DNA of 58,988 bases, taken from Syntrophorhabdales bacterium (GTDB lineage Bacteria > Desulfobacterota > Syntrophorhabdia > Syntrophorhabdales > WCHB1-27). The first letter of the stretch is position 1. Each line of letters starts with the position of its first letter. Positions 9,965-48,854 of the stretch are shown here, piece after piece. The DNA is taken from NCBI GenBank assembly GCA_035541455.1, contig DATKNH010000027.1:1-58988 (forward strand), in the 5' to 3' direction. The translations under genes and the position numbers were made by a program. The notes below the pieces were generated by a model, which searched no databases, had not been told where the DNA came from, and saw only the letters and a list, made by a program, of their open reading frames with translations.

Positions 9965-10025
9965 GAATGCCCTCGAGTACCGAGAGGCGCTCAACCATAC
10001 GCTCATACGCAGAATACGACTGCTA

Positions 10026-10154
10026 TGCCGCGATGGAATTTCGATGCATAACGCGAAGACGAGGGGTTGCCGACCGGAGGCGTACCTTGGGGTACGCTGA
10101 GGATCGTGCGATCCCCGAAGTCGACAAAGTTAGGCGCGAAAGGCCGTCGCGGCA
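10026..10154. repeat. Palindromic intergenic element, copy A
   Basis: Left arm 10026-10052 and right arm 10129-10154 are imperfect reverse complements (TGCCGCGA...TTTCG...TAAC against the same read backwards). The centre has an inner hairpin, GCGTAC at 10080-10085 and GTACGC at 10092-10097, around CTTGGG. It lies between the convergent genes mug and lptE, with the right arm ending two bases before the lptE stop. It is the same family as copy B, in opposite orientation. Confidence 0.8.
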
Positions 10155-10155
10155 C

Positions 10156-10698
10156 CTATAACGCCTTCCGGTCGATGTCGGCCAGTATAAGCGCACTAAA
10201 CCTTCTCGACATCCTCCCGGCGATCCTTATCAGCGCCTGTTTTTTATTGGGATCTTCCAGATTTATGTCCTGAACGTCGTAAGGTTCCGCGTCTATCATC
10301 GACCAGTTCTTAATCAACCGACCGTCTTTCTTTGAGAGCGCCAGGCCAAGAGTAACATAGATGGTCTTCTGTATCACCAGCCCTTGCGAACTCATGGCGG
10401 TGGGCACAATCCGAGTGGTAACGATGGTGCCTTGCAACGTGTTTGACGAACCCTCTTTGTTGACACCGAAAAGACCGCTGACTATGAGTTCCCTCGTAAA
10501 CTCCTCGGTGAAAAACTGCGAGATCTGAGGCTCGAAACTTTGATTCTTAAAGACAGGTACATCGAGGGTGACTACCTCCCCCTGAAAAAGACCCTTCTCA
10601 CCGCTGACGATCGTGTATCCGCAGGAACCCAGCACGAAAAACAAGAGGAGTAGCGAAGCCAGCTTCGCGCACGCACATTTTGTTGAGCCGCCTAACAT
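10156..10698 (-). CDS. lptE: LPS-assembly lipoprotein LptE
   Basis: Outer-membrane lipoprotein that plugs the LptD barrel and delivers lipopolysaccharide to the cell surface. 180 residues. A basic N-terminus and hydrophobic stretch end in the lipobox LGSC (Cys26), followed by GYT. The middle has [26 protein letters not shown], the usual LptE pattern. Its start overlaps the end of leuS by seven bases, and leuS-lptE is a conserved pair. It shows that the organism has an LPS-bearing outer membrane. Confidence 0.88.
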
Positions 10699-25951: not shown

Positions 25952-27061
25952 ATGGCTGATGTACCGACGACAATAAAGACGTGGCAGATGAAGACGCCAT
26001 GGGGTAAGAACAAGGAGACCGGAGAGGTCATACAGGGGAAGCTCGAACAGACAGAGATACCTGTGCCGCCCCTGAAAGAGGGTGATGTCCTCGTTCAGGT
26101 TGCAGGATGCGGCGTTTGCCATACAGACCTCGGCTATTTCTATGACGGTGTTCCGACGGTGAGCAAGCCCCCGCTGACGCTGGGCCATGAGATCGCGGGG
26201 ACTGTGGTCGCAGGCGATGCAGCCTGGATCGGCAAAGAGGTGATCGTTCCTGCCGTCATGCCCTGCCGCAAATGCGCTCTTTGCAAGACGGGTCGCGGCA
26301 ACCGTTGCCTTGCGCAGTTGATGCCGGGTAATTCTCTGGGTATTTACGGCGGCTTCTCCAGCCACATTCCGGTTCCCGCAATCGATCTGTGCCTGGTACA
26401 GGATAAGAAAGGTTACGCCCTGGAACAGCTGGCCGTAATTGCGGATGCAGTTACCACTCCATATCAGGCGGCGAAACGAGCAGACCTTCAGCCGGGCGAC
26501 AACGTGATCGTCATCGGCGCCACCGGCGGCGTGGGCGTGTACGTGGCGCAGACCTTGAGAGCGCTGGGCGCAAAGTCTGTGATCGGTATTGCGAGAAATC
26601 CTGACAAACTGAAGAGGGCCCTGGAGTACGGCTGCGACGCCGTTATCAGCACCGTCGACAAGACAAACAAAGATGTCGTCGGCGAATGGAGAAACTATTG
26701 CAAAGCGAAGGGCGTGCCCAATACCGGTTGGAAGATTTTCGAAGTTACCGGTACTAAAGCCGGACAGGATCTCGCACTTGATCTGCTCTCCTTCGTGGGG
26801 AAACTGATCCTCGTTGGCTTCGGCATGGCCAAGAGCGAGTATATGATGTCCAAGCTGATGGCCTTTGATGCTGAGATCATAGGGACGTGGGGCTGTCTGC
26901 CTGAATATTACCCGATCGTCCTTGACATGGTTCTGAACAAGAAGATCGTGATCGACCCGTTCGTCGAAGTGAGACCGATGAGCACGATCGCGGCAACATT
27001 CGACGAGATACACAAGGCAGGATCACCTGCAAAAAGAGTTGTGTTGAAGCCAGACTTTTAA
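25952..27061 (+). CDS. had: 6-hydroxycyclohex-1-ene-1-carbonyl-CoA dehydrogenase
   Basis: Zinc alcohol-dehydrogenase-family enzyme, 369 residues, close to Had (BamQ) of anaerobic benzoate degraders. It oxidises 6-hydroxycyclohex-1-ene-1-carbonyl-CoA to the 6-oxo compound with NAD. Catalytic zinc residues are in GCGVCHTDLG and GHEIAG; the structural four-cysteine zinc loop is CRKCALCKTGRGNRC; the Rossmann motif is GATGGVGVYVAQ. The next gene acts on its product, which supports the specific call. A strong GGAGG precedes the ATG. Confidence 0.92.
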   Translation: MADVPTTIKTWQMKTPWGKNKETGEVIQGKLEQTEIPVPPLKEGDVLVQVAGCGVCHTDLGYFYDGVPTVSKPPLTLGHEIAGTVVAGDAAWIGKEVIVPAVMPCRKCALCKTGRGNRCLAQLMPGNSLGIYGGFSSHIPVPAIDLCLVQDKKGYALEQLAVIADAVTTPYQAAKRADLQPGDNVIVIGATGGVGVYVAQTLRALGAKSVIGIARNPDKLKRALEYGCDAVISTVDKTNKDVVGEWRNYCKAKGVPNTGWKIFEVTGTKAGQDLALDLLSFVGKLILVGFGMAKSEYMMSKLMAFDAEIIGTWGCLPEYYPIVLDMVLNKKIVIDPFVEVRPMSTIAATFDEIHKAGSPAKRVVLKPDF

Positions 27062-27093: not shown

Positions 27094-28242
27094 ATGGGAC
27101 TTGAATGGATGCCAAGAGAGCACGGAAAGAAAAACCATGATCGTTATGGCACAGAGCACTGGGGGACAGAGGCACCCTGTGTCGTGTACGAGAAGAGACC
27201 ACTAACGGATCCCAAAGGAAACGTGGTAAAGGGGCTTTACGTTTCGTGGATCAGACTCAACAACCCCAACCAGTACAACTCTTACACAACGGAGATGGTG
27301 AAAGGCGTCATCGCTGGTTTTGAGAACTCTTCAACAGACCGCGAAGTCGTCGCAACGGTCTTCACAGGCACAGGCCCGAACGCCTTCTGCACGGGCGGCA
27401 ACACCAAAGAGTATTCCGAGTATTACAGCATGAGGCCTGAAGAGTATGGTTCCTACATGGAACTCTTCAATAACATGGTCGACTCGATCCTCATGTGCAA
27501 AAAGCCGGTCATCTGCCGGGTTAACGGTATGAGGGTTGCGGGCGGCCAGGAAATCGGCACTGCATGCGACCTGACAATCACCTCAGATCTTGCGATTTTC
27601 GGCCAGGCGGGTCCGCGCCATGGCTCTGCCCCGGTCGGCGGCGCATCCGATTTTCTGCCTTCCTATCTCAGCATCGAGGATGCGATGTGGAGCTGCGTGA
27701 GCTGCGAGATGTGGAGTGCGTACAAGATGGCGTGGAAAGGTCTGCTGACAAAAGTTCTGCCGGTTCTGAAAGACGAAAAGGGCGCCTGGGTACGAAACCC
27801 GCAGGTGATCACCGACAAGTTCATCGACAACGGCGAGATCGTGTACGGCGAAAACAAGTCCGGTGATGCGTTCAAACAGGCAAGAGCCTGGGTGAACGAC
27901 AAACTGAAGAATAACGACTATGACTTTGCCCTCCTCGATGCGGAAGTCAATCGCATCGTCTGGATTTTCGCCAACCTCTTCCCCGGCTGTCTCGCAAAAT
28001 CCATCGACGGTATCAGACAGAAGAAGAAATTCTTCTGGGATACAATGAAGAACGATCACCGTCACTGGCTGGCCGCCAACATGATGGGCGAGGCGTATCT
28101 TGGGTTCGGCGCATTCAACTCGAAGAAGATCACCGGCGTCGACACCATCGACTTCATCAAGTACCGTCAGCTGGTTGCCGAGGGAACACTGGTGGATACC
28201 AAGTTCATGGAAGACGTACTGGGCAAACCACAGGGCAAGTAG
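27094..28242 (+). CDS. bamA: 6-oxocyclohex-1-ene-1-carbonyl-CoA hydrolase (ring opening)
   Basis: Crotonase-fold hydrolase of 382 residues that adds water twice and opens the alicyclic ring to 3-hydroxypimelyl-CoA, the diagnostic enzyme of anaerobic benzoyl-CoA degradation (BamA/Oah). The length and the long C-terminal part with KSGDAFKQARAWVNDK and FWDTMKNDHRHWLAANMMGEAYLGFGAFN are typical; ordinary crotonases are about 260 residues. The oxyanion-hole regions are FCTGGN and VAGGQEIGTACDLTI. It follows had by 32 bases. The gene is widely used as a marker for aromatic degraders. Confidence 0.95.
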   Translation: MGLEWMPREHGKKNHDRYGTEHWGTEAPCVVYEKRPLTDPKGNVVKGLYVSWIRLNNPNQYNSYTTEMVKGVIAGFENSSTDREVVATVFTGTGPNAFCTGGNTKEYSEYYSMRPEEYGSYMELFNNMVDSILMCKKPVICRVNGMRVAGGQEIGTACDLTITSDLAIFGQAGPRHGSAPVGGASDFLPSYLSIEDAMWSCVSCEMWSAYKMAWKGLLTKVLPVLKDEKGAWVRNPQVITDKFIDNGEIVYGENKSGDAFKQARAWVNDKLKNNDYDFALLDAEVNRIVWIFANLFPGCLAKSIDGIRQKKKFFWDTMKNDHRHWLAANMMGEAYLGFGAFNSKKITGVDTIDFIKYRQLVAEGTLVDTKFMEDVLGKPQGK

Positions 28243-28259
28243 CGCTTTTGCACGAACAC

Positions 28260-28287
28260 GAAAAAGGGGGCCTAGGCCCCCTTTTTC
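28260..28287 (+). terminator. Bidirectional terminator after bamA
   Basis: A 28-base perfect palindrome: AAAAAGGGGGC, loop CTAG, GCCCCCTTTTT. It ends with a T-run on both strands. It stands 18 bases after the bamA stop and separates bamA from dch. Confidence 0.9.
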
Positions 28288-28389
28288 TTTCAGTTCGCCT
28301 GATGAAATGAGAATGTAGCTTTGAAAAAGGAAAATGTGGTAAATGAGAGTAACAGATTCCTTCCAGTCGCAGAAAAGCTGTTAGCCTCT

Positions 28390-28557
28390 GATTACGATTT
28401 GCATTCAAAATGCAGAGCAAGGCGGCAGCGAGGAGTGTTTTAGCCGGGCACCCGTGGGCAACATCTTTCCGGCGAACACAAACAACCAAAACCACGGGTG
28501 GCAGAGAAGTGCGACGCAGCGACAACGAAGGTATATGCTTCAAGGCAAATCGGTATC
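28390..28557. repeat. Palindromic intergenic element, copy D
   Basis: Left arm 28390-28406 (GATTACGATTTGCATTC) and right arm 28537-28557 (inverted, GATACCGATTTGCCTTG) are imperfect complements. Inside are GGCGGCAGCGAGGA (28421-28434), the inner hairpin ACCCGTGG (28450-28457) with CCACGGGT (28492-28499), and GCGACGCAGCGACAACGAAGG (28511-28531). The right arm ends 5 bases before the dch ribosome binding site. 28291-28389 holds nothing recognised. It is the same kind as copy C. Confidence 0.85.
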
Positions 28558-28574
28558 CCAAAGGAGGAAAGATA

Positions 28575-29345
28575 ATGGCCTACCAACTCATTAATTACGA
28601 AAAGAAAGACAAGGTTGCCCGCATCACGCTCAACGTACCACCGCTCAACTGGATAACGATTCCCATGATTAAAGAGATCATCGACGCAGTTAAAGATGCA
28701 GGCAAGGACGAGACGCTCAAGCTGCTCATTTTCGACCACGCAGGCGAGAAAGCTTTTTCCAGTGGCGTCGATGTCGCGGATCATACCGAGGATAAAGTGG
28801 ATGAAATGATCAAGACGTTCCACCAGATGTTCAGGGTCATGTACGAGATCGACATTCCTATCGTCGGACTCGTGAATGGCGTTTCCTTGGGCGGCGGCTG
28901 CGAGCTTACAAGCTTCTGCGACATCGTGCTGGCATCAGACCGCTCAAGACTTGGCCAGCCTGAGATTGCAGTCGGCGTTTTCCCGCCGGTTGCCGCTGCG
29001 TGGTTCAGCAAGATAATCGGCCTCAAGAAAACCTACGAGCTCATCCTCACCGGCAAAATGATTGGCGCACAGGAAGCAAAAGAGATCGGGCTCGTCAACG
29101 CAGTCTTCCCTGCCGCATCGTTCAGGGAAGATGTTGACAAATTCCTCGCCGAACTGTTGAACAAGAGCAGACCGATTCTCGTCTGGAGCAAACGTGCAAT
29201 CAGGGCAAGCCTCGGTGCCAACTTCCCGGATAGCCTGCGTACAGCAGAAGTGCTCTACCTCGACGGGTGCATGAAGGCGGAAGACGCGAAGGAAGGTATC
29301 GCAGCCTTCATGGGAAAAAGGAAAGCGGTGTGGAAGGACAAGTAA
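28575..29345 (+). CDS. dch: Cyclohexa-1,5-diene-1-carbonyl-CoA hydratase
   Basis: Crotonase-family hydratase of 256 residues adding water to the first dienoyl-CoA product of benzoyl-CoA reduction (Dch/BamR). It supplies the substrate of had. Features are FDHAGEKAFSSGVDVADH, GVSLGGGCELTSFCDIVLASDRSRLGQPEI and AAWFSKIIGLKKTYELILTGK. The ATG at 28575 is chosen because AAGGAGG precedes it; an earlier in-frame start at 28410 would translate the palindromic element. The benzoyl-CoA reductase itself (bamB-I or bcr) is not in this window. Confidence 0.92.
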   Translation: MAYQLINYEKKDKVARITLNVPPLNWITIPMIKEIIDAVKDAGKDETLKLLIFDHAGEKAFSSGVDVADHTEDKVDEMIKTFHQMFRVMYEIDIPIVGLVNGVSLGGGCELTSFCDIVLASDRSRLGQPEIAVGVFPPVAAAWFSKIIGLKKTYELILTGKMIGAQEAKEIGLVNAVFPAASFREDVDKFLAELLNKSRPILVWSKRAIRASLGANFPDSLRTAEVLYLDGCMKAEDAKEGIAAFMGKRKAVWKDK

Positions 29346-33178: not shown

Positions 33179-33187
33179 CAGGATGCG

Positions 33188-33310
33188 GATGGGCGCCTTT
33201 TGCGCCTAACGTCGTTGCCCTTCGGCCTGTCCTGCTTCGACGTACCCCAAGGTACGCCTTCACAAGCCACGCCTCGGTTCGCCTAGTTATGCATCAAAAC
33301 TCGCCCATTC
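33188..33310. repeat. Palindromic intergenic element, copy B
   Basis: Arms 33188-33210 and 33286-33310 are imperfect complements (GATGGGCG...TTTTG...TAAC). The centre CGTACCCCAAGGTACG (33241-33256) is the inner hairpin of copy A read on the other strand. It starts nine bases after the Rrf2 stop, and with copy C fills the gap to usp. Confidence 0.8.
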
Positions 33311-33369
33311 GCGACACATAAAGCGTCCAGTCCTGGACTGACTCTGGTCGAGATACCGGTGGAACAGAT

Positions 33370-33553
33370 GCCGATTCGATTTCAAGATGGACGACCCAGC
33401 CTTCAGCCGGGTACTCCGGACGGCAGCGAGGATTGCTCTAGTCGGGAACCCGTGGCCGACCCTCCTTGCCGCGTGCGTGATCAAGTGAACCACGGGTGGC
33501 ACGAGGAACGCGACCCAGCGACAACCGAGGTACACGCTTGAAATCGAATCGGC
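33370..33553. repeat. Palindromic intergenic element, copy C
   Basis: Outer arms GCCGATTCGATTTCAAG (33370-33386) and its exact complement (33537-33553): a perfect 17-base pairing 150 bases apart. Inside lie ACGGCAGCGAGGATT (33420-33434), the inner hairpin ACCCGTGG (33448-33455) / CCACGGGT (33490-33497) and GCGACCCAGCGACAAC (33510-33525). The right arm ends five bases before the usp stop. Confidence 0.85.
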
Positions 33554-33557
33554 GCAG

Positions 33558-47378: not shown

Positions 47379-47471
47379 CGGGGAAGGGACCGACCGGCTT
47401 GCAGTGGAAATCACTTTCTGTACGTGTAATAAAACAACGCACCTTTACTACTTAGCTCAAAAGGAGGACCT

Positions 47472-47595
47472 ATATCGGTTCATACTTGCGTGAAGACCGA
47501 AGCGGCAGCGAGGAACCGAGGCAGGCGTACAAAAAGTACGCCGACGAGCGCGACGCAGCGACAACGAAGGCATACGCGGAAATATGAACCGATAT
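47472..47595. repeat. Palindromic intergenic element, copy E
   Basis: Arms ATATCGGTTCATACTTGCGT (47472-47491) and its complement (47574-47595). Inside are CGGCAGCGAGGAACC (47502-47516), the inner hairpin GGCGTACAAAAAGTACGCC (47524-47542) and GCGACGCAGCGACAACGAAGG (47550-47570). The right arm overlaps the clpX stop codon (47595-47597). It combines boxes of C/D with the hairpin type of A/B. Confidence 0.85.
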
Positions 47596-48854
47596 CAGGC
47601 GATCTCGGCTTCTTCCTCGTAGATGAGAATGGGCTTTTCTTGATTCAGAATAACTTCTTCACTCACCACGCATTCCTTCACATTGGAAATGGAAGGAAGC
47701 TCGTACATCACATCGAGCATGACTTTTTCCATGATGGAGCGAAGTCCCCGGGCGCCCGTCTTTTTCTTGATCGCATCCTTGGCTATGCCCCGGAGCGCGC
47801 CCTCGGTGAAGGTAAGCTTCACGTTCTCAAGCTCAAAAAGTTTCTTATACTGTTTGGAAATGGCATTTCTCGGTTTCTTGAGAATCTCCACCAGAACGTC
47901 TTCGTCCAGCTCCTCGAGGGTGGCGATGATGGGCAGCCTTCCGATAAACTCCGGAATAAGGCCATATTTCAATAGATCTTCAGGCTGAACATCTCGTATG
48001 AGCTCGCTGTACTGTTTGTCTCTCCCGCCCTCTACATCAACGCCGAAACCTATACCTTTCTTGCCGATCCTGTTGCTGATGATGGTCTCCAGGCCGTGAA
48101 ATGCACCGCCGCAGATGAAGAGAATGTTGGTCGTGTCCACCTTGATGTAATCCTGCTGCGGGTGCTTCCTCCCGCCCTTCGGCGGTACGTTGGCTATAGT
48201 GCCTTCTATGATTTTGAGCAGAGCCTGCTGCACGCCTTCGCCTGACACATCACGCGTGATGGAAGGGCTGTCCGTCTTTCTCGATATTTTGTCGATTTCG
48301 TCTATGTAGACTATACCCTTCTCAGCCCTCTCTATGTTGTAGTCCGCAGCCTGAAGCAGGTTAAGAATAATGTTTTCCACATCTTCACCGACGTAACCAG
48401 CCTCGGTGAGGGTTGTCGCATCCGCAATCGTGAAGGGCACGTGAAGTATCTTAGCCAGCGTCTGCGCGAGCAATGTTTTTCCTGAGCCGGTCGGGCCCAC
48501 AAGCAGAATATTACTTTTCTGTATTTCTACGTCGTCGAAGTTGACCTTCGCCTCTATTCTCTTGTAATGGTTGTACACTGCAACCGAGAGTACCTTCTTC
48601 GCAAAATCCTGACCGATCACATATTCATCGAGAATCCTTCTTATCTCATGTGGCTTGGGGATCGAAGTCTTGATGAATTCAAACCGCTCCCTCTTTGCTT
48701 CTTCCTGGATGATCTCATTGCAAAGCTCGATGCACTCGTCGCAAATATAGACCATGGGTCCCGCGATCAGCTTCTTCACTTCATCCTGGCTCTTCCCGCA
48801 GAAAGAACAATGAAGCTTCATAGTCCTTCCATTGGTCTTCTTCATCATTGTCAT
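47595..48854 (-). CDS. clpX: ClpX ATPase
   Basis: Unfoldase of the ClpXP protease, 419 residues. Zinc-binding domain with [30 protein letters not shown] (4 Cys), Walker [16 protein letters not shown] near 129, Walker [12 protein letters not shown], and the IGF loop that docks to ClpP ([10 protein letters not shown]). ATG at 48854 overlaps the clpP stop by four bases. Its 3' end coincides with copy E. Confidence 0.97.

Follow-up and report, generated by a model that had tools for sequence, protein, structure and literature searches.

A conserved terminator-like hairpin and a copy of a dispersed hairpin family between bamA and dch in a Syntrophorhabdales bacterium

The window, the whole stretch of DNA that was analysed, comprises 58,988 nt of a Syntrophorhabdales genome (contig DATKNH010000027.1; hereafter the study genome) and carries had, bamA and dch in this order on the forward strand (Table 1). 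Because the product of dch falls below the TIGR03189 cut-off, its name is based on context. A search for dch homologues at E ≤ 1e-40 was positive in 51 of 60 genomes, including the study genome, and 30 loci were used for comparison. At 28 of these, again including our own, bamA lies immediately upstream of dch on the same strand; of the remaining two, one contig begins 177 nt before dch (L140) and the other has no bamA in the available stretch (L141). The gap between the two genes varies from about 60 to 340 nt in length across the loci. The dch proteins of the study genome and of its congener G001 are 91% identical.

Table 1. Features discussed in the text, with positions in the window
Feature	Position	Strand	Basis or remark
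Family copy, second subtype	10024-10156	+	Right end on opposite-strand stop
had, 6-hydroxycyclohex-1-ene-1-carbonyl-CoA dehydrogenase	25952-27061	+	NCBIfam TIGR03201, 455.6 bits against a cut-off of 338.65
bamA/oah, 6-oxocyclohex-1-ene-1-carbonyl-CoA hydratase (ring opening)	27094-28242	+	NCBIfam TIGR03200, 535.1 bits against a cut-off of 464.45
Terminator-like hairpin with U-run, position after bamA conserved	28260-28287	+	Inverted repeat, fold, relatives' gaps
Block GGAAAATGTGGTAAAT between terminator and element D	28329-28344	+	Alignment with G001 and G003 gap, by eye
Copy D, dispersed hairpin family member with long variant central module	28390-28557	+	R1 match, blastn family, same-site copy in G001
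Left outer arm of D	28390-28408	+	Inverted repeat with 28539-28557
Central module of D	28436-28510 (approximate borders)	+	Replaces GGCGTAC/GTACGTC hairpin of other copies
Right outer arm of D	28539-28557	+	Inverted repeat with 28390-28408
dch ribosome binding site AGGAGG	28562-28567	+	Read from sequence
dch, putative cyclohexa-1,5-diene-carbonyl-CoA hydratase (crotonase fold)	28575-29345	+	TIGR03189, 141.9 bits, below the cut-off of 292.5
Family copy, second subtype	33183-33314	-	Right end 4 nt from + strand gene's stop
Family copy	33367-33556	+	Right end 1 nt from opposite-strand stop
Top-scoring window copy (L025)	47471-47596	+	130.1 bits with R1; right end on opposite-strand gene's stop codon

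Behind bamA, GAAAAAGGGGGCCT and AGGCCCCCTTTTTC form a perfect inverted repeat in which all 14 positions of the two 14-nt arms are complementary. The RNA fold of positions 28250-28300 reached -26.1 kcal/mol (z -5.1), a value equalled by none of 200 shuffles. The terminator-like hairpin that the preliminary description had placed here is therefore real. It had also been called bidirectional, which holds literally in the study genome, but by eye the left side of the hairpin carries no A-run in many relatives. When a script was applied to the window's 23 co-directional gaps of 50-400 nt, this hairpin was the sole terminator-like site.

Every readable bamA-dch gap (28/28, comprising our own and 27 relatives) carried a G/C stem with a U-run behind it, beginning about 17-26 nt into the gap. 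Terminator hairpins were found in 4 of 120 background co-directional gaps, which were taken from other loci without de-duplication and scored by a slightly stricter script. Since the 28 gaps come from related genomes, they reflect conservation and not 28 independent events. A terminator splitting dch from the upstream genes had been considered odd, but it is not peculiar to this genome. In eight relatives (L145, L147, L148, L152, L154, L158, L159 and L161), the U-run ends only 16-20 nt short of the dch ATG. This leaves no free space for a promoter, and we therefore read the hairpin as a putative internal attenuator or 3'-end stabiliser with read-through, while a dch promoter overlapping the hairpin is conceivable in these short-gap relatives. 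The G/C-rich stem, the U-run right behind the gene and the position conserved in the order resemble an intrinsic terminator or intercistronic attenuator, whereas the placement within a conserved co-directional gene pair is unlike the usual intrinsic terminator. The bamA hairpin itself is real and old. Judging from sequence, it is predicted to be a terminator of an ordinary type and appears to be ancestral, internal and subject to read-through.

Between this hairpin and dch lies element D, the repeat copy reported directly before the dch ribosome binding site. Its presence there was confirmed, although its last base, 28557, precedes the AGGAGG by four bases instead of the five first given. D matches the covariance model R1, which was built from 21 aligned plain-form copies with D excluded, at 74.4 bits (E 2.7e-14 in the window). 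Its outer arms are 79% complementary and carry mismatches, and a perfect 9-bp hairpin (28449-28457/28492-28500) lies inside it. Folded alone, the RNA of positions 28380-28570 was no better than shuffles (z -0.74; 45/200 as good). In G001 a copy of D occupies this position too, flanked by an intact TAA duplication and containing a different central module; in the study genome the ends are TGA and TCC, that is, without duplication. These two congeners are the only ones of the 30 dch loci with an element, where an E 0.19 match at L160 was regarded as chance and the L140 contig offers 177 nt before dch. The notion that hairpin and element form one unit is accordingly unsupported. We read D as a mobile element that arrived later, within the genus; it belongs to a rarer kind of copy, in the minority position where the right end adjoins a gene start. 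Nothing in our analysis shows that it controls dch.

D belongs to a sizeable family. Searching the study genome with D by blastn returned 57 pieces, and R1 matched 78 places at E ≤ 0.1. Among 60 genomes, R1 matched 26 at E ≤ 0.001, which were 26 of the 46 from the same order (the study genome included) and none of the 14 from elsewhere in the phylum. In a wider draw on the phylum, at least 27 of 297 genomes matched at E ≤ 1e-5, at least 22 of them outside the order; 27 is a lower bound because just 11 candidates per genome were scored. The plain form spans about 127 nt and consists of outer arms of about 19 pairs (ATACCAATTTGCATTCAAG ... CTTGAAGGCGAATTGGTAT), conserved purine-rich flanks and a central GGCGTAC/GTACGTC hairpin. 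A search with 28 exact core bases hit one named genome, the MAG Chersky.21_67 (18 stretches), at coordinates that are those of G001; the window's own records are possibly absent from that database.

The family occupies five places in the window (Table 1), and the top-scoring copy there, at 47471, is one of the 21 sequences of R1. A sixth model match in the window is this last copy read on the reverse strand and was not counted. Two copies share a single convergent gap (33183-33314 and 33367-33556) in opposite orientations, and the right end of each lies at the stop codon of the gene beside it. The second subtype (10024-10156 and 33183-33314; L209, L213, L214) includes several stretches 86-95% identical in G001. 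It scores poorly with R1, so the family counts are lower bounds in this respect too. For the 10024 copy, the corresponding site in G001 contains a stretch of 95% identity beside a coding flank of 72% identity, offset by about 40 nt, which could be a fresh insertion or a conversion. L098 and L166, from two congeneric genomes, each hold a pair of adjacent elements; the sites are shared but the inner subtypes differ, suggesting module exchange or re-insertion. In copies at L089, L131, L132 and L133 (G017) the outer arms are nearly all copy-specific yet complementary, and the inner part alone is common. Five copies (L064, L185, L191, L196 and L087) apparently lie within predicted ORFs.

Rfam returned just two tRNAs in the window at the gathering threshold. 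Relaxed to E 1, a search of three copy loci brought up nothing but chance-level miRNA models, all at a single locus. No plasmid-borne copies were found by distant blastn with one copy, and viral contigs had no matches to one exact core pattern. We rejected a coding reading of the family because loop lengths vary between copies and, by eye, break the frame.

Placement relative to genes was strongly asymmetric. The copy set comprised 153 copies after dropping reverse-strand duplicates, truncated matches and repeated loci, and the context table held 148 of these, leaving out the five inside predicted ORFs. Genes were called with a home-made codon score trained on the window, making distances approximate, most so in distant genomes. 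Right ends fell at -10 to +12 relative to an opposite-strand stop in 77 of the 148 copies, and left ends did so relative to a same-strand stop in 11 (the sign test gave 2e-13, with copies that are not independent). The right end was near a gene start in 20 of the 148 copies and the left end in 2; D is absent from the 20, as the dch start was taken as 28509. The next gene lay at a median distance of 1 nt from the right end and 99 nt from the left end. Of the antisense genes next to the right end, 95 have a visible end, and 43 of these show precisely the offset that results when stop codon and TNA are one and the same. These 43 ends comprised 21 TAA, 19 TGA and 3 TAG (TAA or TGA in 40 of 43). 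By comparison, TAG made up 16 of the other 34 ends near a stop, and 216 of 824 among the genes of these loci. These counts imply that the target must be TNA and that, beside a stop that does not fit TNA, elements tend to be shifted by a few bases. Copies with an intact duplication lay at a right stop in 12 and at a left stop in 4 of 36 cases, as compared to 65 and 7 of the remaining 116. The weaker bias in the former fits retention by selection atop some insertion preference. Copies from other families repeated the placement bias (right 15 versus left 4 of 27).

Evidence for mobility came mainly from the element ends. Identical end trimers were found in 20 of 64 copies in G001, 16 of 31 in other relatives within the order, and 15 of 27 in eight genomes of five other families, counts that none of 2000 shuffles reached. 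The next outer trimers were identical in just 3, 2 and 1 copies, respectively, and 19, 16 and 13 of the identical trimers were TNA. In the study genome, identical end trimers occurred in 2 of 57 copies, the shuffle level, implying that the duplication has been lost; we counted this against an insertion scenario. The exact 3-bp TNA duplications in copies outside the study genome indicate a mobile, MITE-like element. Like a MITE, the family is short (~127 nt), has terminal inverted repeats (97.6% of arm cells paired in the 21-copy set), lacks coding capacity and shows a target-site duplication, which is 3 bp of TNA in relatives and without support in the study genome.

Comparison of sites between the congeners was less clear-cut. 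For one insertion in G001, the study genome has the same two convergent genes and no element, but this gap is not a clean empty site: about 48 nt extend beyond the joined flanks, and the left part is unalignable. A second G001 site is split across two contigs in the study genome. Two window sites sought in G001 were both occupied by elements there. We looked for an autonomous partner, defined by TNA plus TACC-, TGCC- or TTCC-type inverted ends, and found none among 28 PF01609 (DDE_Tnp_1) loci in four of five genomes. Mobilisation by RAYTs was rejected, as no Y1_Tnp gene was detected in the study genome, G005 or G321, all of which are copy-rich. At about 127 nt, the family also differs from the 20-40 bp hairpins with a GTAG or CGTC tag that define REP/RAYT systems.

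The outer arms remain paired while their sequences change, which could reflect selection on RNA or correction at the level of DNA. The covariation score beat 500/500 shuffles in three copy sets, although, by the tool's own caution, relatedness of the sequences can yield such scores where no structure exists, and shifting pair partners by 1-3 columns abolished the family covariation. Double changes in the outer stem were observed at 14 of 18 pairs (A3), 19 of 19 (A5, relatives) and 15 of 19 (A8, other families), where the A5 and A8 alignments were fitted to the model and hence lean towards it. Between the study genome and G001, same-site pairs showed double Watson-Crick changes at 8 of 19 pairs for the 47471 copy, whose coding flanks are 81-84% identical, at 4 for L098:1778/L166:1242, at 1 for L098:1540/L166:1501 and at 0 for D. 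The L065/L181 pair was out of register and was left out of this count.

Arm mismatches were more often G.U than A.C (55 versus 34, p 0.03; 139 of 153 copies, 14 stem positions), as was the balance within copies (40 with more G.U versus 20 with more A.C, p 0.013). This excess stemmed from the G001 set (32 versus 11) and partly from position 10 (23 versus 9), without which the overall count was 32 versus 25. Old copies of the study genome had no preference (15 versus 18). In other families the count without position 10 was 17 versus 7, which speaks for some strand bias that we cannot explain. A first count on model-fitted alignments (52 versus 28) was set aside because the model fit favours G.U. 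In the core hairpin, a + strand G.U pair was present in 127 of 143 copies and A.C never, with the hairpin located by likeness to a consensus having that pair. Given the lack of preference in old copies and the scarcity of unpaired intermediates, we lean towards hairpin-templated DNA correction as the process keeping the arms complementary. These data weaken the case for RNA selection on the outer stem, but the counts of 55 versus 34 and 17 versus 7 do favour G.U, so that RNA selection may contribute, as may a second insertion at one stop codon.

Several published families resemble this one. In Geobacter metallireducens, 24 predicted short RNA elements are described as multicopy and intergenic with a central palindrome, GRCGTAGCGCTGCTACGCC, and one copy separates co-transcribed dap genes (PMC2700814). 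The reverse complement of this palindrome follows the plan of the GGCGTAC...GTACGTC hairpin, and we found it in 12 of 395 phylum genomes. Longer paired arms occurred at 12 of the 13 places with the palindrome; at 8 of these 12 the right end lies ≤ 13 nt from an opposite-strand gene end, and at 4 of the 12 the left end is also near a gene. In contrast, the letters of core and arms differ from those of our family, with R1 giving 7 weak matches at 6 of the 12 loci (best E 1.3e-4). Target duplication, stop-codon abutment and covariation go unmentioned in the consulted portion of PMC2700814. From sequence comparison, the Geobacter elements are probably a distant relative and the closest published one.

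Other analogues are YPAL and the enterobacterial ERIC/IRU/RU-1 elements (127 bp), the latter described as palindromic, intergenic, MITE-like and co-transcribed with genes, with target duplication (PMC2229807, consulted in part). Our family resembles ERIC in its length of about 127 nt and in these traits, whereas its 3-bp TNA duplication, variable yet complementary arms and one end on stop codons depart from the ERIC description there. The REP elements with RAYTs, of the GTAG and CGTC families, are dispersed palindromes of 20-40 bp located mostly downstream of coding regions, and CGTC REPs likewise have no known transposase according to the excerpts consulted (PMC3733652). Unlike these, our family is longer, makes a 3-bp duplication and is abundant in genomes with no detected Y1_Tnp. 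Multicopy intergenic sequences of G. bemidjiensis are described without comparable letters in the consulted portion of PMC2996986. The literature excerpts consulted held no description of our family beyond the Geobacter elements, which is no proof of absence. The element is a new variant among small mobile palindromes, a known kind, and its family is little described.

Taken together, the gap probably holds two unrelated features: an ancestral partial terminator and a later insertion of a non-autonomous mobile hairpin. The ancestral hairpin and U-run would partly terminate had-bamA transcription, protect the mRNA 3' end, or both, and some polymerases would pass it and read on into dch. In an ancestor of the genus, a small hairpin element would then have inserted between the terminator and the dch ribosome binding site, presumably by means of a transposase and with a 3-bp TNA duplication, bringing no recognisable promoter and leaving the binding site intact. 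D would now form a long hairpin in the dch leader, where any effect would be on leader stability or read-through.

It is possible, if doubtful, that the bamA operon instead ends at a full terminator and that dch is transcribed separately from a promoter of its own, located in 28290-28389 or overlapping the hairpin, with D in the 5' leader. The strength of the hairpin and the long gap in the study genome agree with this arrangement. So does the GGAAAATGTGGTAAAT block, which by eye is mostly retained in G001 and has a similar counterpart in G003; it is a possible promoter or regulatory/binding site and could be the dch promoter. However, a scan of 27900-28900 found no sigma-70-like sites, a weak test given that shuffles average 0.7 and other promoter types lay outside the scan, and the short distance after the U-run in eight relatives could accommodate a promoter only if it overlapped the hairpin. 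The same scan bears on the preliminary proposal that the element itself provides a dch promoter, which went unsupported. Right ends near gene starts in 20 copies, D uncounted, would suit such a role, but far more right ends face opposite-strand stops, where a promoter pointing outward would drive antisense transcription of the gene, and we consider this source of a promoter highly improbable.

Readings that invoke RNA function must contend with the mobility evidence. That the family in its entirety represents a standing structured RNA with a cis-regulatory or sRNA role, and not a mobile element, is unlikely in our judgement: the double changes in relatives and other families, the G.U excess and the designation of the Geobacter relatives as predicted short RNAs by earlier authors (PMC2700814, consulted in part) point that way, whereas the 3-bp target duplications, the element-free gap, the old copies' lack of G.U preference and the lack of an Rfam match point away from it. 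We are more sceptical still that D was recruited as a regulatory or processing RNA, forming a structured dch 5' leader that stabilises, is cut by RNase, or senses. D does lie in sense orientation within the leader, 4 nt from the ribosome binding site, its site is held in the congener, and the family's core hairpin keeps its G.U pair (with the stated reliance on the consensus). Nevertheless, the central module is unlike between the two congeners, D's arms are mismatched, D folds no better than shuffles, no element was found at the other dch loci, and most family copies are situated elsewhere than before gene starts. More speculatively, we can imagine a phylum-wide hairpin family that inserts strand-specifically, through an as yet unrecognised enzyme, at a TNA at or beside stop codons with its fixed end facing the gene, landing on the codon itself if it is TAA or TGA and a few bases off if it is TAG. 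The arms would then evolve in concert via hairpin-templated DNA correction, central modules would be swapped like cassettes, and D would represent a copy that ended up in the leader of a gene.

For the order, these results mean that an intercistronic terminator of a central anaerobic aromatic pathway has been kept in every readable gap, and unequal or attenuated expression of bamA versus dch may be the rule. Beyond it, a mobile hairpin family spans many families of the phylum, with copies that lie on stop codons and mostly face the same way. Its arms stay complementary despite sequence change, which makes it natural material for studying insertion targeting and palindrome evolution in bacteria.
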